64,000 nucleotides of DNA from Planctomycetota bacterium (GTDB lineage: Bacteria; Planctomycetota; Brocadiia; Brocadiales; Brocadiaceae): the NCBI GenBank assembly GCA_016873165.1, contig VGXV01000011.1, forward strand, positions 1-64,000. The letters are read 5' to 3'. The position numbers and the translations under genes were made by a program. Shown one piece after another: positions 7,020 through 64,000 of this stretch (within the stretch, counting starts at the first letter, position 1; each line of letters opens with the position of its first letter). A model generated the notes under the pieces. The model did not search any database and had not been told where the DNA came from. It saw only the letters and a list, made by a program, of their open reading frames with translations.

Positions 7020-8972
7020 ATGGCCTCATCAGATATACAAATTGGTATGAGTGGAGTTCTTGCCGCGCAACGTGCGATGCTGGTTTCCGCTCATAACATA
7101 TCGAATGCAAACACAAAAGGATATACAAAACAAACAGCAAGTCTTGCAACACGATTGCCTTCCCAAACAAGTATAGGAAGTATTGGGCAGGGCGTTGATC
7201 TGGTAAAGATATTGAGGCAGAAGGATGATTATCTTAACAGCAGGATCAGGTTTGTCACATCATCTCTTGGTGCCGCCTCAACAAAAAGCCAGCAATTGAG
7301 AGAACTTGAAACGGTGTTTAACGAATTAAGTGATTCCAGCATAAGTAATTCTTTGACAAGTTTCTTTAAATTCGTTAATGACCTTTCACAAGATGAGAGC
7401 ACCAGCACACGCTCCGTGCTTATAGAAAAGGCTACTACCCTGACGGAATCTATAAGAGCAGTAGTGGATGAACTGGATAAGATGAAGGAGTTTGTAGAAC
7501 AATCTGTAGAGTCCAAACTAGAAGAAGTAAACGCATTGGCGAAAGATATCGTTGAACTGAATAAGGAAATCTTCACGTTAAAAACTACAGGCGGGGAGCC
7601 AAACGACTTGTTGGACAAGAGAGATATGTTGCTCAACGAACTCAGCAAGTTTATGAACGTTACCGCAAGGACGCAGGACAATGGTATGATAGACGTGATG
7701 ATTTCAGGAGGAGTGCTGGTGAATGGTTCAAATGCTATGACGCTTGAATCCAGTGTTGATTCAAACGGTAAGATCAATATTACCAGTTATGGAAGCGCCA
7801 AACACAAACCTACAGGCGGAGAATTGAGCAGTTTGCTGGAGATGTATAATACCACACTGCCGGCATATGATACAAAACTGGATACTTTTGCAACCGGGCT
7901 TATAAAAGAATTTAACACGATTCACAGCGAAGGTGTGGGTACAGATGGTGGATTTACTACGGTACTCGGAACAAATAAAGTATCAAGCACGACTGCAATA
8001 TTAAATAATGCAGGGTTGCCTTTTGCGCCATCAAGTGGTGATATATACGTTACGGTAATAAATACCAGCACGGGGGAAGAGGTCAAAACCAAGATTTCGG
8101 TAGATGTAACAACCGACACACTTACTACATTAAGCACTGCAATAGACGGTATTGCAAATATTTCTTCTGCTATTTCAGACAAGAAATTGCAGGTTACTGC
8201 AAGTTCCGGGTATAAATTTAATTTTTCATATGCATTGGATCCGAATCCCGGGACTTTAGGGTCTTCAACGGTATCACTTTCAGGAGTATATAGCGGTAGT
8301 AACAATGATACCTATACATTCAAGGCATTGGGAACAGGCACGATTGGAACGACATCCGGGCTTCAGGTAGAGGTAAGGGACAGCGGTGCAAATCTTATAG
8401 CAACGCTTGATGTCGGGAGCGGATATACCGCAGGGAATACCCTTGAGGTTGCAAATGGTGTTTCTGTTACATTTTCTGCTGCCTCAGTTACTACTGGTAA
8501 TACCCTTTCTTCAGTAGTTCTCAATGATTCTGATCAAACAAATCTGTTGGCGGCCTTGGGTATAAATACTTTTTTTAGCGGAAGCGACGCGTCAGATATA
8601 GGTATTGAGAAAAAAATACAGGAAGATGTTACACTCATTGCAACATCGATAGGGGAACGCGGGAATAATATAAATGCATTACGTTTATCAGCATTGCAAA
8701 ACGATAACAGCGCTGTGGAAAATACTACTTTATCCGACTATTTACACCAGATTGCCTCGGCATTAGGAGAAGAGGCAAATAATGCTTACAATTCTGAAGA
8801 GAAATATACTGCATTGGAGACGAGCCTTCAGAATAGAAGAGAAGAGGTTTCCGGGGTGAATGTCGATGAAGAATTGGTCACCATGATACGATTTCAGCAT
8901 GCATACCAGGCATCAGCAAAGTATATTTCAACAGTGGATCGATTAATAAATACATTGTTAAATTCACTGTAA
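7020..8972 (+). CDS. flgK: Flagellar hook-associated protein 1 FlgK
   Basis: Hook-filament junction protein (650 aa). The N-terminus has the axial-protein heptad signature (GMSGVLAAQRAMLVSAHNIS, then NANTKGYTKQ), and the C-terminus closes the coiled coil with VNVDEELVTMIRFQHAYQAS and YISTVDRLINTLL. Between them lies a long Ser/Thr/Gly-rich variable region (about residues 300-530), which makes the protein longer than the ~550 aa of E. coli FlgK and presumably forms surface domains. It is exported by the flagellar type III system with FlgN as chaperone. A GGGAGCAGGGGG ribosome-binding region precedes the ATG. Confidence 0.93.
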   Translation: MASSDIQIGMSGVLAAQRAMLVSAHNISNANTKGYTKQTASLATRLPSQTSIGSIGQGVDLVKILRQKDDYLNSRIRFVTSSLGAASTKSQQLRELETVFNELSDSSISNSLTSFFKFVNDLSQDESTSTRSVLIEKATTLTESIRAVVDELDKMKEFVEQSVESKLEEVNALAKDIVELNKEIFTLKTTGGEPNDLLDKRDMLLNELSKFMNVTARTQDNGMIDVMISGGVLVNGSNAMTLESSVDSNGKINITSYGSAKHKPTGGELSSLLEMYNTTLPAYDTKLDTFATGLIKEFNTIHSEGVGTDGGFTTVLGTNKVSSTTAILNNAGLPFAPSSGDIYVTVINTSTGEEVKTKISVDVTTDTLTTLSTAIDGIANISSAISDKKLQVTASSGYKFNFSYALDPNPGTLGSSTVSLSGVYSGSNNDTYTFKALGTGTIGTTSGLQVEVRDSGANLIATLDVGSGYTAGNTLEVANGVSVTFSAASVTTGNTLSSVVLNDSDQTNLLAALGINTFFSGSDASDIGIEKKIQEDVTLIATSIGERGNNINALRLSALQNDNSAVENTTLSDYLHQIASALGEEANNAYNSEEKYTALETSLQNRREEVSGVNVDEELVTMIRFQHAYQASAKYISTVDRLINTLLNSL

Positions 8973-9006
8973 CGGCACATAGGGTGATCTTTTGTGCTGC
9001 AAAGCG

Positions 9007-9034
9007 GCAGAGACGTACGGACGTGCGTCTCTGC
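9007..9034 (+). terminator. Hairpin between flgK and flgL
   Basis: GCAGAGACG pairs with CGTCTCTGC around a 10-nt loop, followed by an A-rich rather than T-rich stretch. It resembles the GAGACGCAT palindromes at 51212 and 56733, so it may be a member of that repeat family rather than a true terminator. Confidence 0.5.
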
Positions 9035-56839: not shown

Positions 56840-58135
56840 ATGTGTCTTACAATTCCTGCAAAAGTAGTATCAGTTGAAAATTCATGCGCCGGTTTGCCGG
56901 TAAAGAGAATTACCATCCGCGATTCAAAAGGAGAAAAAACGATAAACGCATTGCCTGCCGATATCAGGGCGGGAGATTGGGTTCTGTATGCCTCTGATAT
57001 GGCGGTGGAAAAGATAAGCGAAGATGACGCAAGGGAAATACTGGAACTCCTGGAACCTAAGAGGTATATCGATATTTCCCGGCTTGATAGTGCGTTTCTG
57101 GAAATACTCAAGGCATGCCATACAAGAGAACTCAGACGTGAAGAAATCATCAGACTTCTTTGCATCGGCGACGATGCGGAGACAAACGCCCTGCTTTCAG
57201 AGGCAAATACCATACGGCAGGCAAGGCTGAGGGATTTCTTCTGCATACACGGCATAATAGAGTTTTCAAACCACTGCGTCAGGAACTGCCTTTACTGCGG
57301 ACTCAGAAGGGACTCAAAAGATATACGGCGTTACAGAATGGCGCCTGATGAAATAGTAAATTCCGTGTATGACGCCGTAAACCGCCGCGGATACAAACTT
57401 ATCGTTCTCCAGTCGGGCGATGATTTCTTTTACACTGACGATATGCTCTGCGGCATCATCAGAAAGATAAAGGAAAAGTGCAGGGTTTTTATTTTTATGA
57501 GCGTAGGAGAACGAAGCCGTGCAAGTTATGAAAAAATGAAGGATGCGGGGGCAAATGGCGTCCTTTTTCGCTTTGAGACCTCCAACAAGGCGCTCTATAG
57601 CTCCATCCATCCGGGACAGTCGCACGATGAAAGGATTGCTCTTCTCCGGGAAATGAAGAAGATGGGTTACTTTATTGCCACAGGGTTTCTCATCGGCCTG
57701 CCGGGACAGACGGTTGAAGATATAGCGGATGATATAATAACTACCAAATCCATCGGCGCAAACATGGTGTCTGTCGGTCCGTTCATACCCTCGGACATCA
57801 CTCCCCTGGCGCTGCACCCCGCGGGCAGCGCGGCAATGACGCTTAAGGTAACGGCCGTTTCGAGATTGCTGATGCCAAAGGCAAAGATACCGGTTACTAC
57901 CGCCCTTGAGACTATTGAAAACGAAGAGGGGCGGAGGCTCGGACTCTCTTCCGGCGCAAATTCGCTCATGTTCAACCTCACGCCAGAAAAATACCGGGAC
58001 GATTACAGGATTTATCCGAATAAGTATCACGGAAAAGAGGAGTTTTGGGAAAAATACGGACTCTATAAGGAAGAGATAAGTTACAAGATGCTTGAGAGAA
58101 AAATGTTTGAAGCGTTTGAGTCCTTTGAGGTATAG
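56840..58135 (+). CDS. HypC-HydE fusion protein (radical SAM hydrogenase maturase)
   Basis: A 431-residue fusion. Residues 1-~75 are HypC/HupF-like (MCLTIPAKVV with the essential C2, AGDWVLYASDMAVEKISEDD). From ~80 the sequence is HydE, a radical SAM enzyme: C146, C150 and C153 form CxxxCxxC in HCVRNCLYCGLRRDSKD; VLQSGDDFFY and FRFETSNKALY are also in the HydE pattern. HypC ferries the Fe(CN)2CO group with HypD in [NiFe] maturation, while HydE acts in [FeFe] cofactor assembly. The HypC part has Ala at 51 where a conserved His is expected. The start at ATG 56840 gives Cys as residue 2, as HypC requires. Confidence 0.88.
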   Translation: MCLTIPAKVVSVENSCAGLPVKRITIRDSKGEKTINALPADIRAGDWVLYASDMAVEKISEDDAREILELLEPKRYIDISRLDSAFLEILKACHTRELRREEIIRLLCIGDDAETNALLSEANTIRQARLRDFFCIHGIIEFSNHCVRNCLYCGLRRDSKDIRRYRMAPDEIVNSVYDAVNRRGYKLIVLQSGDDFFYTDDMLCGIIRKIKEKCRVFIFMSVGERSRASYEKMKDAGANGVLFRFETSNKALYSSIHPGQSHDERIALLREMKKMGYFIATGFLIGLPGQTVEDIADDIITTKSIGANMVSVGPFIPSDITPLALHPAGSAAMTLKVTAVSRLLMPKAKIPVTTALETIENEEGRRLGLSSGANSLMFNLTPEKYRDDYRIYPNKYHGKEEFWEKYGLYKEEISYKMLERKMFEAFESFEV

Positions 58136-58167: not shown

Positions 58168-58404
58168 ATGCAGACAAGCTATAAAGAAAAGATTTTGCAG
58201 GAGATAGAGAAAATCCCTGAAGACAAACTGGCGAATATGTATAAAATTATCCATTTGTTGACAGATGAGATAATATCTGACGCAAAAAAGACAGGCAAAA
58301 GGGTTTCCTTAAGAGGGATATGGAAAGGTAGTCTGATTGACGATTCTCTGTTTGATGATGCCCAGAAATCGCTCTTTCCCTACGAAAACAAAAGGACTAC
58401 ATAA
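58168..58404 (+). CDS. Antitoxin of a VapBC-type pair (DUF2281-like)
   Basis: A 78-residue antitoxin: an N-terminal helix (YKEKILQEIEKIPEDKLANM) and a C-terminal toxin-binding tail (GIWKGSLIDDSLFDDAQKSL). The stop overlaps the toxin start (TAATG). VapB-type proteins neutralise PIN toxins and repress their own operon. It sits between the fused hypC-hydE and hydG. Confidence 0.75.
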   Translation: MQTSYKEKILQEIEKIPEDKLANMYKIIHLLTDEIISDAKKTGKRVSLRGIWKGSLIDDSLFDDAQKSLFPYENKRTT

Positions 58405-58790
58405 TGGATTATATAACCGATACCCATTCGCTTGTTTGGTATTTTACAGATGATAATAGGCTGAGCAGTAATGCACTCCAAGCTTTTCAGGCATCAGAGA
58501 GCGAAGGAATTGTGATTGTGCCTGCCGTTGTTTTGGCTGAGGTAATGTTTATAGCAAAAAAGGGTAAAATTACTCTTTCATTTGAAGATACTCTCAAACG
58601 GATTGAAGAAAGCAAAAACTTTGAAACAGCGCCGTTAAATGCAGAGATATTGAAAACTGCTAATGCGATTGAAGCCGATTTGGAGATGCACGACAGGCTT
58701 ATAGCGGCGACAGCCTTGCATTATAATGCGGCATTGATTACAAAGGATAGGGCAATTGCCCTTTCTGGCATTGTAGCAACTGTTTGGTAA
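58404..58790 (+). CDS. vapC: VapC-family PIN-domain toxin
   Basis: A 128-residue PIN ribonuclease. Acidic metal ligands are visible as D6 in YITDTHSLVW, E in VVLAEVMFIA, D in EMHDRLIAATA and D in LITKDRAIAL. It cleaves RNA when its antitoxin is lost. Translationally coupled to the antitoxin. Base composition (24 of 60 G+C at 58441-58500) is lower than in hydG and the hydrogenase genes around it, which fits insertion into the operon. Confidence 0.85.
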   Translation: MDYITDTHSLVWYFTDDNRLSSNALQAFQASESEGIVIVPAVVLAEVMFIAKKGKITLSFEDTLKRIEESKNFETAPLNAEILKTANAIEADLEMHDRLIAATALHYNAALITKDRAIALSGIVATVW

Positions 58791-58874: not shown

Positions 58875-60251
58875 ATGCAAAAAACATTTATAGACGAAGA
58901 TAGATTCCAATCCTTGCTCACGAATATCCCCTCACCGTCACCGGCTGTAGTGGCGGATGTGTTAAAAAAGGGCAGGGAGTTGAAAGGGCTTACACCTGAA
59001 GAAGCGGCGATATTAATACATGTTGCTGACCAGAGTTTTATTCAGGAAATATTCGATACGGCCTTTCACATAAAAAACACCGTCTATGGAGGCAGGCTTG
59101 TGTTCTTTGCACCTCTCTACATCAGCAATTTCTGCGTAAATAACTGCAGGTACTGCGGTTTTCGCGCAGGCAATCCCGCCCCGAGAAAAAAACTTACCAT
59201 AGATGAGATCAGGGAACAGACCGATTGCCTCATAAGGATGGGGCACAAGAGGATCCTGCTGGAGACGGGAGAGGACGCCGGAAACAACCCAATAGATTAC
59301 GTCCTGGACGCAATAGACGCCATATATTCCATAAAAAACGAAAAGGGTGAAGTAAGAAGGGTCAATGTAAACATTGCCGCAACAACGGTTGAAAACTACA
59401 GAAGGCTCAAGGCAAAAGGCATTGGCACATACCAGCTTTTCCAGGAGAGTTATCACAGGCAAACTTACGAAAATGTTCACTATGGCCTTAAAGGCAATTA
59501 TCTGAGACAGCTCTATGCCCTTGACAACGCCTTTGAGGGGGGAATTGATGACGTCGGTATGGGCGTCCTCTTTGGTTTGTATGACTGGCGGTTTGAGACA
59601 CTGTGTCTGATATCCCATGCGTCTTACCTCATGGATAAATTCGGAATAGGCCCGCATACGATCTCCGTGCCAAGGCTTAGACCCGCCACCGCTGTGAATC
59701 TGGCGCCGCCGTTTCCCGTCAGCGACAGCGATTTTCTGAAGCTCATAGCCATCCTTAGAATCGCCGTTCCCTACACCGGCATGATAATAACCACAAGAGA
59801 AAGGCCGGAGATAAGGGAAGAGGCATTTCGCCTGGGGATTACTCAGGCAAGCGCCGCGTCAAGCACGGCGCCGGGGGGATTTAAGAAGGAAACGGCAAAG
59901 GAGTCCGGGCAATTTGAGTTATCGGACAAGCGGAGCCTTGATGAGATTACGGCAAGCGTAATGAAGCAGGGCTTTATGCCCAGTTTCTGCACAGCCTGCT
60001 ACCGCAGGAACAGGACGGGCGCCGTATTCATGGAACTCGCAAAGCCGGGAGATATCCACGAGTTTTGCGCCCCCAACAGCGTACTTACGCTGATGGAATA
60101 CCTGGAAGACAACGCCTCTGCGGAAAGCAGGCGTTTGGGGATGGAGTTGATAAACAAGTCATTGGAAGGCATAGAAAATCCTTCGGTAAGAAATGAGACG
60201 GAAGAAAGGCTGGTAAGGATAAGAAACGGGGAGAGAGACTTGTATTTTTAG
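58875..60251 (+). CDS. hydG: HydG, tyrosine lyase producing CO and cyanide
   Basis: A 458-residue radical SAM enzyme. The SAM cluster motif is CxxxCxxC at C87, C91, C94 (FCVNNCRYCGFRAGN). The C-terminal auxiliary cluster motif is CxxC-x22-C at C372, C375 and C398 (FCTACYRRNRTG ... HEFC), which separates HydG from the thiamine enzyme ThiH. HydG splits tyrosine to make Fe(CO)(CN) units in [FeFe] maturation. In this locus the hydrogenase visible is [NiFe], so HydG may serve a different purpose (see findings). The hypA gene follows after 22 nt. Confidence 0.93.
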   Translation: MQKTFIDEDRFQSLLTNIPSPSPAVVADVLKKGRELKGLTPEEAAILIHVADQSFIQEIFDTAFHIKNTVYGGRLVFFAPLYISNFCVNNCRYCGFRAGNPAPRKKLTIDEIREQTDCLIRMGHKRILLETGEDAGNNPIDYVLDAIDAIYSIKNEKGEVRRVNVNIAATTVENYRRLKAKGIGTYQLFQESYHRQTYENVHYGLKGNYLRQLYALDNAFEGGIDDVGMGVLFGLYDWRFETLCLISHASYLMDKFGIGPHTISVPRLRPATAVNLAPPFPVSDSDFLKLIAILRIAVPYTGMIITTRERPEIREEAFRLGITQASAASSTAPGGFKKETAKESGQFELSDKRSLDEITASVMKQGFMPSFCTACYRRNRTGAVFMELAKPGDIHEFCAPNSVLTLMEYLEDNASAESRRLGMELINKSLEGIENPSVRNETEERLVRIRNGERDLYF

Positions 60252-60273: not shown

Positions 60274-60618
60274 ATGCATGAACTGTCAATAGTCACAAGC
60301 ATGATCAGTATTGTCCGGGAAAATATGGCGCGGCACGGGGCGGGGCGTCTTAAAAAGATAAAGATACGGGTGGGTGAAATGACTGCCGTCGAGCCGGAAG
60401 CCCTTCGATTCTGTTTTGAGGTCTGCGCCGGGGGAACCGACATGGAGGGCGTAATCCTCGATATCGAAGAGGTCCCCGTCAGGGGACAATGTATTCACTG
60501 CAAAAATGAGTTCCCCCTGGACAGGTACCTCGACTCCCGATGCCCAGTGTGCGGAGGAGAATCTGGCGGCTACGTGTCAGGCACGGAGCTTGATATTGTT
60601 AGCATGGAGGTAGAGTAG
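60274..60618 (+). CDS. hypA: Hydrogenase nickel-insertion protein HypA
   Basis: A 114-residue HypA. The N-terminal nickel site is MHE (His2, Glu3). The zinc site has two CxxC pairs: CIHCKNEF and RCPVCGGE. The intervening EMTAVEPEALRFCFEVCAGG and the terminal LDIVSMEVE are typical. With HypB it delivers nickel to the hydrogenase large subunit precursor. It ends where hypB starts (no gap). Confidence 0.95.
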   Translation: MHELSIVTSMISIVRENMARHGAGRLKKIKIRVGEMTAVEPEALRFCFEVCAGGTDMEGVILDIEEVPVRGQCIHCKNEFPLDRYLDSRCPVCGGESGGYVSGTELDIVSMEVE

Positions 60619-61284
60619 ATGCACGACGTCCTTATCAATACAAAGATACTGGTAAAAAACAATGAAATAGCAAACCAAAACCGAAAATTATTGAAGGATA
60701 AGGGGATATTTGCTATCAATCTGATGAGTTCTCCGGGTTCGGGAAAGACCTCTATCGTTGAAAAAACCATAGATTTCCTGAAAGACAGGATAAAGATCGC
60801 CGTTATTGTGGGCGACATTCAGACCGATTTGGATGCGCAAAGGATCGCAAGGCACGGCATCCCCGTCAGACAAATAAACACGGGCAGGAGTTGCCACCTT
60901 GACGCCCACATGATACAGCATACCCTTCCGTGGCTTTTCGAACAGGGAAAAACAGATTTGGTGATAATAGAAAATGTAGGCAACATGGCGTGCCCTGCAG
61001 AATACGACCTCGGCGAGGATTTCAAGGCGGCGGTAATGAGCGTAACGGAAGGGGATGACAAACCCCTAAAATACCCCGCCCTTTTCAGGGCTTCCCGGTA
61101 TCTCTTGATAAATAAGGTTGACCTTTTGGCATACACTGATTTTAATATGGAAAAGGCACGGCACAGCGCATGGGCGATTAATCCGGAGTTAAAGATAATA
61201 GAGACGTCCTGTGCCGATGAAACGGGTATCGCGGAGTGGGTGGATAGTATTTTTAAAGGAGATCATGAAAATAGAGTAAGATGA
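60619..61284 (+). CDS. hypB: Hydrogenase nickel-insertion GTPase HypB
   Basis: A 221-residue SIMIBI GTPase with P-loop SSPGSGKTS, VGDIQTDLDAQRIARHGIPV, the Ni/Zn site GRSCHLDAHM, and GTPase motifs VIIENVGNMACPAEYDLGE and LLINKVDLL. The His-rich N-terminal store and the CxxCGC motif present in some HypB proteins are lacking. Translated directly after hypA. HypC is present as a fusion; HypD, HypE and HypF are not seen in the window. Confidence 0.95.
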   Translation: MHDVLINTKILVKNNEIANQNRKLLKDKGIFAINLMSSPGSGKTSIVEKTIDFLKDRIKIAVIVGDIQTDLDAQRIARHGIPVRQINTGRSCHLDAHMIQHTLPWLFEQGKTDLVIIENVGNMACPAEYDLGEDFKAAVMSVTEGDDKPLKYPALFRASRYLLINKVDLLAYTDFNMEKARHSAWAINPELKIIETSCADETGIAEWVDSIFKGDHENRVR

Positions 61285-61345: not shown

Positions 61346-61723
61346 ATGAAAACAAAATCATTAGGGCGATATATCGTGGCTGATCCTGATACCTGTCATG
61401 GAGAACCGACATTTCGCGGCACGTGCATTTTGGTTGCAGATGTGCTTGAGCAAGTTGCCAATGGTATGGACTGGGAGGCAATAATTGAAGAATGGCGCGG
61501 CAAACTGACTAAAGAAGCAATTGCTGAAGCCGTTCGCCTTGCTCGTGAGGCATTAATTACGCATACGCCGGAATTAATAACGGAGACGACTAAACGAGGG
61601 ACGATAGATGAGGGACGAGTGACGAGAGATGAAAGGGCGATTAGCGTCCCTCGTCTTTCCTTAAAATTCGTGAGATTCGTGTTCCACAAAAACTTTCCAA
61701 AAAAAGAAGTTTTTACGGAGTAA
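61346..61723 (+). CDS. DUF433 antitoxin-like protein with extra C-terminal tail
   Basis: Residues 1-~75 are a DUF433 (VapB45-like) domain: ADPDTCHGEPTFRGTCILVA, then LEQVANGMDWEAIIEEWRGK and IAEAVRLAREAL. The family normally ends soon after this; here ~50 more residues run through a GGACGA-repeat-like stretch with an inverted repeat ACGAGGGACG (61594-61603)/CGTCCCTCGT (61645-61654). No toxin immediately follows, although a separate antitoxin-toxin pair begins 70 nt downstream. Confidence 0.7.
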   Translation: MKTKSLGRYIVADPDTCHGEPTFRGTCILVADVLEQVANGMDWEAIIEEWRGKLTKEAIAEAVRLAREALITHTPELITETTKRGTIDEGRVTRDERAISVPRLSLKFVRFVFHKNFPKKEVFTE

Positions 61724-61794
61724 TACTAAAATAAAGTGTGACAAAATAAACGGTTTAGATGCATGTCATAAGGCAAAAGAGGGGGGGATACATA

Positions 61795-62016
61795 ATGTTA
61801 AAAATAGTTGAGGAAGTGCCGTTTTTCCAGGACGAAAAAACAAAGGAGAAATTTCTCCTGGTATTGGGTGCCCTGAGCACACGTCTGATAAGTTTGAGAA
61901 AGGCGGCAGAAATTATGGAATTAGAAGAAGCCACCTTACTTGAAATTATGGAAATGCTCGGTTTTGAATTTTCATACTTAGAGGAAAAGGATATAGAGGT
62001 AGAAAGGAACAGCTAA
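61795..62016 (+). CDS. UPF0175-family antitoxin
   Basis: A 73-residue protein of the UPF0175 type, with the helix-turn-helix ALSTRLISLRKAAEIMELEE and EIMEMLGFEFSY. This family pairs with DUF3368 PIN toxins, as here: the toxin begins right after the stop. ATG 61795 is chosen because GGGGGGG lies 8 nt upstream. Confidence 0.8.
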   Translation: MLKIVEEVPFFQDEKTKEKFLLVLGALSTRLISLRKAAEIMELEEATLLEIMEMLGFEFSYLEEKDIEVERNS

Positions 62017-62496
62017 TTGAAGGTTGTATTTAATACTTCCCCTATTATTTTTCTTTACAAACTTGGATATCTTGAGCTTGCATTAAATCTATTCGATGAT
62101 ATTTATATCCCTGCATCCGTATTTACAGAAATCAGCAGGAAGGAGGACAAATTAAATACTCTTATTGAGGTATTAATTCAGGAAGAAGCATTTAAACAAA
62201 GAGAGATTAAGCTAATCAATATCTTTCGCGGTTTAAACCAAAGAATCGGGAGAGGAGAATCAGAAGCTATTGTTCTGGCTATAGAACTGGAAGCAGATTA
62301 TGTAATACTTGACGATTTTGTGGCAAGAAAAGAGGCAATAAAACTAGGGTTGAATGTTAAAGGTACACTTGGAATTATAAGAAAGTTAATGATCGATAAG
62401 TATATAGAAGTAATAGCCATAGATGATTTATACGAGAAACTTAAAGAAATGAAATTTAGGGTAAAAAAGGATGTTTTCAATAAAATATTCGAATAG
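62017..62496 (+). CDS. DUF3368 PIN-like toxin
   Basis: A 159-residue PIN-fold protein: N-terminal VVFNTSPIIFLYKLGYLELA, E in VFTEISRKED, RGESEAIVLAIELEADYVIL and the D pair in LDDFVARKEA. Related to VapC-like nucleases. Its start is TTG, coupled to the antitoxin. A local 60 bp (62041-62100) is only 17/60 G+C, against 42/60 in the hydrogenase small subunit 800 bp later, which marks it as foreign to the surrounding operon. Confidence 0.82.
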   Translation: MKVVFNTSPIIFLYKLGYLELALNLFDDIYIPASVFTEISRKEDKLNTLIEVLIQEEAFKQREIKLINIFRGLNQRIGRGESEAIVLAIELEADYVILDDFVARKEAIKLGLNVKGTLGIIRKLMIDKYIEVIAIDDLYEKLKEMKFRVKKDVFNKIFE

Positions 62497-62588
62497 GTGG
62501 TTGGTTATTAAAACTTCCCAGATAAAAGGAAAACGGATGATTTGATTTGCAGCATATTGTTTATGGTCAAAAATACAGGAGATGCGAA

Positions 62589-63578
62589 ATGAAAAACCTT
62601 CTTTGCCTTCACGGACTCGGCTGCGGCGGCGATACAATCTCCCTCCTGAACGCCGAAGAACCGGATTTGCTGACCGCCCTTGAAATGCTTGAGATAAACG
62701 TTGCATGGCACCCCTCCATCTCACTTGAAAAGGGCGACGACGTCAAACAAATCTGCGCCGATTTTGCCAGCGGGAAACGTAGCCTGGATTTATTTATTGT
62801 GGAAGGCGCCGTTCCGACGGGGCCGGACGGCACCGGGCGTATCTTTGAATTTCTCGACAGGCCATTCATTGACTGGGTCAGGGACCTGGCGGCCGTCGCG
62901 GAATACACTATCGCCGTAGGCACGTGCGCGACTTCCGGCGGCATTCCCTCGGCAAACCCGAACCCTACCGGGGCAAACGGTCTGCAATTCACGCGGGATA
63001 AAACCGGCGGCATTCTTGGGACAGACTACCGGTCTAAGGCAGGTTTTCCCGTGATAAATATCCCTGGATGCCCGTCCCATCCCGACTGGATACTGGAATC
63101 GCTTTATCTTATTGCTACAGGAAAACTACTCCATGAGCATCTTGACTACGCAAACCGTCCCGCCCATTTTTTCAATAATCTCGCCCACCACTCCTGCCCA
63201 AGAAACGAGTTCTATGAATTTAAGGCGTCCGCTGAAGAATTCGGGCAGATGGGCTGTCTGTTCGAGCGCCTGGGCTGCCGGGGCACTCAGTGCGAATCCG
63301 ACTGCAATATCCGCCTGTGGCTTGGCAGGACGGGTTCCTGCACAAGGGGTGGTTATCCATGCATATCATGCACCTCACAGAATTTTCCTCTTCCGGATAT
63401 TAACTATTTCAAAACCGAGACCATGGCAGGCGTGCCAAAGGCCCTGCCGAAAGACGTGCCAAAGGCATGGTACATAGGCATGGTCGGGCTTGCGAAAATG
63501 GCAACGCCGGAACGTCTGAAGATAAACGCCGTTTCTACACAGAACAAATACCGTAAAAAAGGAGAGGGTCAATCATGA
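62589..63578 (+). CDS. [NiFe] hydrogenase small subunit, group 2/1h-like
   Basis: The Fe-S subunit (329 aa) without a Tat signal, so probably cytoplasmic. The proximal cluster motif reads GLGCGGDTISLLNAEE: C12 then Asp15 where CxxC is normal; the other ligands are C113 (GTCATSGGIP) and C161 (NIPGCPSHPDW). The medial/distal cluster region has HHSCPRN, GCLFERLGC and PCISC. The close pattern to cyanobacterial HupS/HupU proteins (HPSISLEKGDDV, LQFTRDKTGG, VINIPGCP) suggests group 2 or 1h; the group cannot be fixed by eye. ATG 62589 has AGGAGAT upstream. Overlaps the large subunit by 4 nt. Confidence 0.92.
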   Translation: MKNLLCLHGLGCGGDTISLLNAEEPDLLTALEMLEINVAWHPSISLEKGDDVKQICADFASGKRSLDLFIVEGAVPTGPDGTGRIFEFLDRPFIDWVRDLAAVAEYTIAVGTCATSGGIPSANPNPTGANGLQFTRDKTGGILGTDYRSKAGFPVINIPGCPSHPDWILESLYLIATGKLLHEHLDYANRPAHFFNNLAHHSCPRNEFYEFKASAEEFGQMGCLFERLGCRGTQCESDCNIRLWLGRTGSCTRGGYPCISCTSQNFPLPDINYFKTETMAGVPKALPKDVPKAWYIGMVGLAKMATPERLKINAVSTQNKYRKKGEGQS

Positions 63579-64000
63579 GCAAGACAATATCCATTTCTCC
63601 GTTTAACAGGGTTGAGGGCGATTTAAAAATTAAGGTGAAAATAGAGGACGGCAGGGTGGCGGACGCCAGGGCGTCCGGAACTATGTTCCGCGGATTTGAG
63701 CAGATACTCAAAGGGCATTTCCCGGAGGACGCCGTCATTTATACGCCCAGGATATGCGGCATTTGCTCCATATCGCACTCAGTCGCGTCCTCCAATGCGC
63801 TCGCGGCTATTTCAGAGGCGTTTGTCCCTTCAAGGAACGGACAGCTTGCAAAAAATATAAGCCACGCGACGGAAAACGCCATGAGCCATATTACGCAGTT
63901 TTATCTCTATTTTGGACCCGACCTCCTGAATAAAAAATATACCGGTTTTACGTATTATCCGGCCATGGAAAAACAGATGACGGGGTTAAAAGGGGAATCG
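63575..64000 (+). CDS. [NiFe] hydrogenase large subunit, partial (runs off window)
   Basis: The catalytic subunit, first ~142 residues only. ATGA overlaps the small subunit stop. The L1 motif is NRVEGDLKIKV (Asp replaces the His of the more usual EGH) and the L2 motif RICGICSISHS supplies the first nickel cysteines. The second CxxC near the C-terminus lies beyond the window. RVEGDL with this L2 fits group 2/1h rather than periplasmic group 1 enzymes. Confidence 0.93.
   Translation, partial: MSKTISISPFNRVEGDLKIKVKIEDGRVADARASGTMFRGFEQILKGHFPEDAVIYTPRICGICSISHSVASSNALAAISEAFVPSRNGQLAKNISHATENAMSHITQFYLYFGPDLLNKKYTGFTYYPAMEKQMTGLKGES

Follow-up and report, generated by a model that had tools for sequence, protein, structure and literature searches.

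A HypC-HydE fusion protein and a predicted HypD-independent route to the iron half of the [NiFe] hydrogenase cofactor

A single polypeptide encoded in a genome of the Brocadiaceae (Planctomycetota) unites a HypC domain with a radical SAM enzyme of the HydE family, and stands at the head of an operon that also encodes HydG, the nickel-inserting proteins and both subunits of a [NiFe] hydrogenase. We propose that HydG and this HypC::HydE fusion together replace HypCDEF, with tyrosine as the source of both CO and cyanide. We consider this reading likely (with a probability of about 0.78); it is inferred from genomes, and its chemistry is untested.

The machinery that supplies CO and cyanide differs between [FeFe] and [NiFe] enzymes, as was set out in a paper of 2019 (PMC6802093). 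On the [NiFe] side, Fe(CN)2CO is carried by HypC to the large subunit (PMC9002611, PMC8692609). On the [FeFe] side, HydG converts two tyrosines to [Fe(cys)(CN)(CO)2], which is passed directly to HydE, and the latter reduces and dimerises this product for HydF (PMC12752695).

The fusion protein and its operon

The fusion lies at 56840..58135 on the forward strand of the window, by which we mean the whole stretch of 64,000 nucleotides that was analysed. Its frame is open throughout, from ATG to TAG, and specifies 431 residues. Residues 1-72 (56840..57055, forward strand) constitute the HypC domain, detected over residues 1-71 by the PF01455 HupF_HypC profile with 44.9 bits (cut-off 28.5), and about residues 86-403 (57095..58048, forward strand) constitute the HydE radical-SAM domain, detected by TIGR03956 rSAM_HydE with 276 bits (cut-off 254.6), the match being placed at residues 93-403. 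When the HypC domain alone was compared with TIGR00074, its score remained below the cut-off (39.1 vs 48). Structures of HypC align with the first part of the protein, and Thermotoga maritima HydE aligns with the second part from end to end (5.8e-77). An AlphaFold2 model computed from an alignment of 68 fusion proteins attained a pLDDT of 89.6 and a pTM of 0.89, and a Foldseek comparison of this model with T. maritima HydE (PDB: 3ciw) gave 1.1 A over 310 columns. The radical-SAM motif CX3CX2C, comprised of Cys146, Cys150 and Cys153 (57275..57298, forward strand), is present in 89/89 fusion proteins. An earlier note, made from the sequence alone, had read this frame as a HypC with its Cys2 joined to a radical SAM HydE; that claim held, both profiles being above their cut-offs, and it understated the case. 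The fusion is the sole HypC of the window genome, which is rated 100% complete, and a genome-wide profile search of that genome found neither HypD nor HydA.

The same note had conceded that a frameshift or an assembly error near position 57070 would refute the fusion. We reject this possibility: the identical HypC-HydE junction occurs in relatives at 88, 84, 79 and 71% identity, one of which is a genome assembled as a single contig and 99% complete (G001), and the architecture is retained in distant homologues down to approximately 37% identity. A HydE-like radical SAM protein encoded on Bradyrhizobium plasmids was also considered as a candidate and set aside, as it is unrelated to hydrogenase genes.

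The order of the operon is HypC::HydE - HydG - HypA - HypB - [NiFe] small subunit - large subunit, all on the forward strand. HydG (58875..60251, 458 residues) scores 534 bits against TIGR03955 (cut-off 312) and displays both the radical-SAM CX3CX2C and a C-terminal CX2CX22C motif. It is followed by the nickel chaperone HypA (60274..60618; TIGR00100, 97.6 bits, cut-off 88.1) and the nickel GTPase HypB (60619..61284; TIGR00073, 266 bits, cut-off 121). The small subunit (62547..63578) is matched by PF01058 and PF14720, and the large subunit begins at 63575, runs to the end of the window at 64000 and continues to contig position 65029 (PF00374, 196 bits; ORF 7576-9030 of locus L002), with the motifs RICGICSISH and DPCLVCTVH. 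Two sets of further genes interrupt this series on the same strand. The fusion is separated from HydG by a pair of genes, one antitoxin-like and one with a PIN domain (58168..58790; PF01850), and HypB from the small subunit by DUF433 and DUF3368-like genes (61346..62496; PF04255, with PF11848 below its cut-off). Neither set belongs to the mechanism. The window genome resembles Candidatus Kuenenia, its nearest named relative being K. hertensis, whose fusion is 88% identical. The points at which defence-type genes break into the Kuenenia hydrogenase operon differ: the window has PIN/antitoxin-like pairs, and in K. hertensis a type I restriction-modification system, together with other genes, separates the fusion from HypA (L068 11375-19293).

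Outside the window the fusion occurs with group-3b-like [NiFe] subunits, HypA, an M52 protease and HydG. Across 79 fusion loci HydG adjoins the fusion in 56 (within 300 bp in 46), and a [NiFe] large subunit is found in 36, HypA in 32 and the M52 protease in 30; these counts are lower bounds, many loci being cut off at contig edges. HypD, HypE and HypF were found in 0 of these 79 local neighbourhoods. HydF likewise had no convincing match in the fusion neighbourhoods, to which this search was confined, with only two marginal matches of 28 bits, and the same search recovered it in six canonical Hyd loci. We also looked for an additional conserved maturation factor in these operons and found none: the clusters of neighbouring ORFs were hydrogenase or membrane subunits, the M52 protease and unrelated genes. 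The recurrent neighbour families were named by reading their sequences rather than by profile.

Phyletic spread and ancestry of the fusion

A scan of GTDB species representatives yielded at least 235 relatives of the fusion, of which the top 80 were retained; almost all of these align from residue 1 to approximately residue 395 or further. About 88 distinct proteins share the HypC::HydE architecture, and they come from around ten phyla of bacteria, the CPR and DPANN archaea. The bacterial carriers include Omnitrophota, Elusimicrobiota, Margulisbacteria, Saganbacteria, Spirochaetota, Lentisphaerota and Planctomycetota, among others; those of the CPR are Moran-, Peregrini-, Berkel- and Falkowbacteria, and those of DPANN are Micrarchaeota, Nanoarchaeota and Woesearchaeota. 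Among relatives within the window's own phylum the fusion was recovered in 18 genomes, including G086, the single-contig G001, and G052, in which the fusion is split across two contigs.

In a HydE tree the fused sequences and 11 canonical HydE proteins fall on opposite sides of one branch with support of 100/99, so that the simplest reading is that the fusion arose once and then spread by wide transfer. A single bacterial family holds two distant forms of the fusion that are only about 43% identical (G010 and the window genome, G000), one grouping with CPR sequences and the other with Scalindua sequences, a distribution that probably reflects horizontal transfer.

Maturation genes across whole genomes

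Whole-genome searches covered the 18 planctomycete fusion genomes and 50 others reached via fusion loci, i.e. 68 genomes. The 50 come from among the loci that matched the query alignment best, and 30 of the 80 loci lay outside these searches. Most fusion genomes are metagenome-assembled, many of them incomplete, and for the 50 no completeness figures are given. HypD (PF01924) is absent genome-wide from all 68 (0/18 and 0/50). HypF (HypF_C) and HypE above its cut-off were sought genome-wide only in the 18 planctomycetes, and each was found in 0/18. [FeFe] HydA was found in 0/18 planctomycetes and in 9/50 of the others, and a [NiFe] large subunit above the PF00374 cut-off was present in 16/18 and 46/50 respectively (62/68); it was undetected in G038, G044, G119, G135 and G141, and its match in G137 was weak. 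A preponderance of the fusion in [FeFe] genomes without a [NiFe] enzyme, which the earlier note had named as a further refutation, is thereby excluded.

In contrast, planctomycetes that possess [NiFe] large subunits without the fusion had, in the same search, HypD in 8/8 and HypF in 8/8. The contrast of 0/16 against 8/8 gives a Fisher p of 1.4e-6, uncorrected for kinship. In control genomes, that of Escherichia coli among them, these profile searches gave the expected matches. A protein on contig C33 of the window genome was considered as a hidden HypE and rejected: it scores 115 bits against TIGR02124, below the cut-off of 251.6, and lacks the C-terminal cysteine of HypE. Since a similar paralogue also exists in genomes with a true HypE, we take the C33 protein to belong to a related ATP-binding family. 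An Elusimicrobia genome (L202, G139) provides a within-genome control: a single contig there holds both systems, namely [NiFe] genes with the fusion and a HydA-HydG-HydE-HydF set, whose HydE keeps the canonical Arg54.

Residue changes in the fused domains

The HypC part of the fusion retains Cys2 in 88/88 proteins with an intact N-terminus. The position of His51 is instead occupied by Gln (77) or Ala (8), the latter being the residue of the window protein. In canonical HypC, His51 is a proposed iron ligand along with HypC Cys2 and HypD Cys41 (PMC12134894), and the loss of His51 from the fused domain is consistent with the loss of HypD.

In the HydE part the clearest systematic changes map to strand beta-1, in the segment Cys135-Ile-His137 (57242..57250, forward strand), which corresponds to the positions of His52 and Arg54 of T. 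maritima HydE. The first position is Cys in 88/88 fused proteins and His, Tyr or Phe in the 11 canonical ones; the second is His in 88/88 fused proteins and Arg in 11/11 canonical ones. Both residues are also invariant in the A2 set. Relative to the 11 canonical sequences, the adjoining Val51 has also become Cys or Phe and Val289 has become Ser, along with a few milder changes; otherwise the strictly conserved positions are mostly unaltered. Positions 135, 137, 139, 141 and 143 alternate on one strand, and this suggests that Cys135 and His137 could face the barrel cavity, a possibility inferred from the alternation without coordinates.

No position separates fusion-linked from canonical HydG, and no [NiFe]-specific signature was found in this comparison. 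The radical-SAM cysteines are present in 67/67 fusion-linked HydG proteins and the auxiliary-cluster motif CX2CX22C in 58/67; the remaining nine have a CX5C spacing, which is also seen in a canonical HydG.

The [NiFe] large subunits of fusion genomes

Both CxxC motifs, which furnish the cysteine pairs of the [NiFe] site, are kept in the complete large subunits examined, with one selenocysteine exception. This is in a deltaproteobacterial metagenome-assembled genome (L069 5699-7600), where an in-frame TGA occupies the place of the first L2 cysteine (DPUMACAVH), and the protein is probably a [NiFeSe] hydrogenase whose maturation does without HypD. The Arg and Pro-Thr/Ser motifs are largely retained in the large subunits of fusion genomes. 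These motifs hydrogen-bond both cyanides in [NiFe] structures, and their retention therefore favours the standard ligand set.

The large subunit of the window ends at the last His of DPCLVCTVH and has no C-terminal extension. Downstream of it (L002 9166-16606) are hybrid histidine kinases, an HD-domain response regulator and a GGDEF regulator, as read from their sequences; by analogy, the missing extension and the regulators give a layout like that of predicted H2-sensing hydrogenases. A second large subunit of the window genome is found on contig C53 and is followed by an M52 protease. CPR-type large subunits (L071, L073, L170) also stop exactly at the last His of DPCxxCxxH, and would thus need no maturation protease.

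A proposed pathway and its weak point

What is shown is the fusion itself, the identity of its domains, its conserved residues, its operon company, the presence of [NiFe] large subunits and the genome-wide absences, of HypD in all 68 genomes and of HypE, HypF and HydA in the 18 planctomycetes. The chemistry in its entirety, including the tyrosine origin of CO and cyanide, the hand-over from HydE to HypC and the control of the ligand ratio, is inferred without any biochemistry.

We envisage the fusion as the central enzyme of a route that assembles the iron half of the [NiFe] cofactor without HypD, HypE or HypF. HydG would cleave tyrosine and build a mononuclear Fe-CO-CN complex, which the HydE domain would take over; its radical-SAM chemistry, altered at the Cys135/His137 site, would not proceed to dimerisation into an [FeFe] subcluster. 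The invariant cysteine and histidine of the barrel might capture the iron in place of HypD Cys41. The covalently attached HypC domain would then receive the iron on Cys2 and pass it on to the apo large subunit; HypA and HypB would next insert nickel, and the M52 protease would trim the large subunit where an extension exists. The earlier note had inferred from the fusion a link between the two maturation systems. Such a link is supported, with a refinement: since HypD is missing from 68/68 genomes, and HypE and HypF from the 18 in which they were sought genome-wide, we favour a replacement for HypCDEF over a bridge between co-existing pathways.

The weak point is the ligand ratio. The HydG and HydE known so far give Fe(CN)(CO)2, whereas the known [NiFe] sites hold Fe(CN)2(CO); the known product therefore calls for an extra step or another stoichiometry. 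HydE might swap one CO for a second cyanide, or the enzymes might bear another ligand set; either remains possible. A bolder reading, toward which we lean only slightly, is that HydG and the fusion constitute a third, widespread Fe-CO-CN route, supplying tyrosine-derived CO and cyanide to [NiFe] enzymes without HypD, HypE or HypF in about ten bacterial phyla, the CPR and DPANN, and possibly yielding Fe(CO)2(CN) in some.

Alternative explanations

One alternative is that HydG and the fusion provide only CO or Fe-CO, with an unidentified substitute for HypE and HypF making the two cyanides. The stoichiometry problem would then vanish, and the largely kept two-cyanide pocket motifs hint that the site is an ordinary Fe(CN)2CO one. 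Against this, the operons contain no recurrent conserved enzyme of unknown function and HydG itself makes cyanide (PMC12752695), and we regard the alternative as unlikely.

Also unlikely, though somewhat less so, is a non-standard [NiFe] site, e.g. Fe(CO)2(CN) rather than Fe(CN)2CO, built by the fusion and HydG. This is a sub-case of the main pathway that differs in its product. In its favour, Fe(CN)(CO)2 is the known product of HydG and substrate of HydE (PMC12752695), HydG is unaltered here, and no other cyanide source was seen; the largely kept cyanide-pocket motifs of the large subunits speak against it.

That the fusion serves an [FeFe] hydrogenase or some other enzyme, its [NiFe] neighbours being coincidental, is very improbable. 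HydA does occur in 9/50 of the non-planctomycete fusion genomes, but it is missing from the other 41 and from all 18 planctomycetes, the neighbourhood of the fusion holds no convincing HydF, and the HydA encoded close to the fusion came with a HydE, HydG and HydF of its own. An artefact, through frameshift or genes missed in draft genomes, is all but excluded and already refuted for the fusion itself: most fusion genomes are indeed metagenome-assembled, but the window genome is rated complete, G001 is a nearly complete single contig, and HypD is uniformly absent across all the genomes searched.

Relationship to known systems and implications

With the canonical HypC-HypD and HypE/HypF system (PMC12134894) the fusion genomes share the essential Cys2 of HypC, four-Cys [NiFe] large subunits, HypA/HypB and the M52 protease. 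They differ in having no HypD and, in the 18 tested, no HypE or HypF, and the fused HypC differs from its canonical counterpart in lacking His51, in being joined to a radical-SAM enzyme and in having HydG alongside. With the HydG-HydE-HydF system of the [FeFe] H-cluster (PMC12752695) they share a HydG with all known Cys and His sites and CX3CX2C, and a HydE whose fold lies within 1.1 A of the T. maritima protein, with most strictly conserved residues. Unlike that system, the fusion side has no convincing HydF (in the loci searched) and usually no HydA, and unlike canonical HydE, the fused form has Cys135/His137 in place of His/Tyr52 and Arg54, plus its N-terminal HypC.

Two other systems offer partial parallels. 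HypX (PMC6802093) likewise gives [NiFe] enzymes a diatomic ligand by an alternative route, in its case an oxygen-dependent supply of CO; it differs in furnishing CO only and in working together with HypCDEF, and it is not known to have any sequence relation to the fusion. HmdB, of [Fe]-hydrogenase cofactor synthesis, is likewise a HydE-like radical SAM protein recruited to another class of hydrogenase, but the fusion scores 75.7 bits against its profile, far under the cut-off of 320.9. Every part of the proposed pathway belongs to a known family, and we found no description of the fusion or of a HypDEF-free [NiFe] pathway in the full-text literature searched, which leaves out preprints and most subscription papers; within that literature the pathway appears to be undescribed.

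The proposed pathway is at odds with statements that all six Hyp proteins are needed, and the genomes suggest that in some natural lineages HydG, which is known to make CO and cyanide, took over the [NiFe] task. If true, it would offer a compact gene set for the production of [NiFe] hydrogenases in other hosts, would be open to a direct isotope test, and would explain the [NiFe] hydrogenases without HypD in anammox bacteria, Omnitrophota, Elusimicrobia, and members of the CPR and DPANN.
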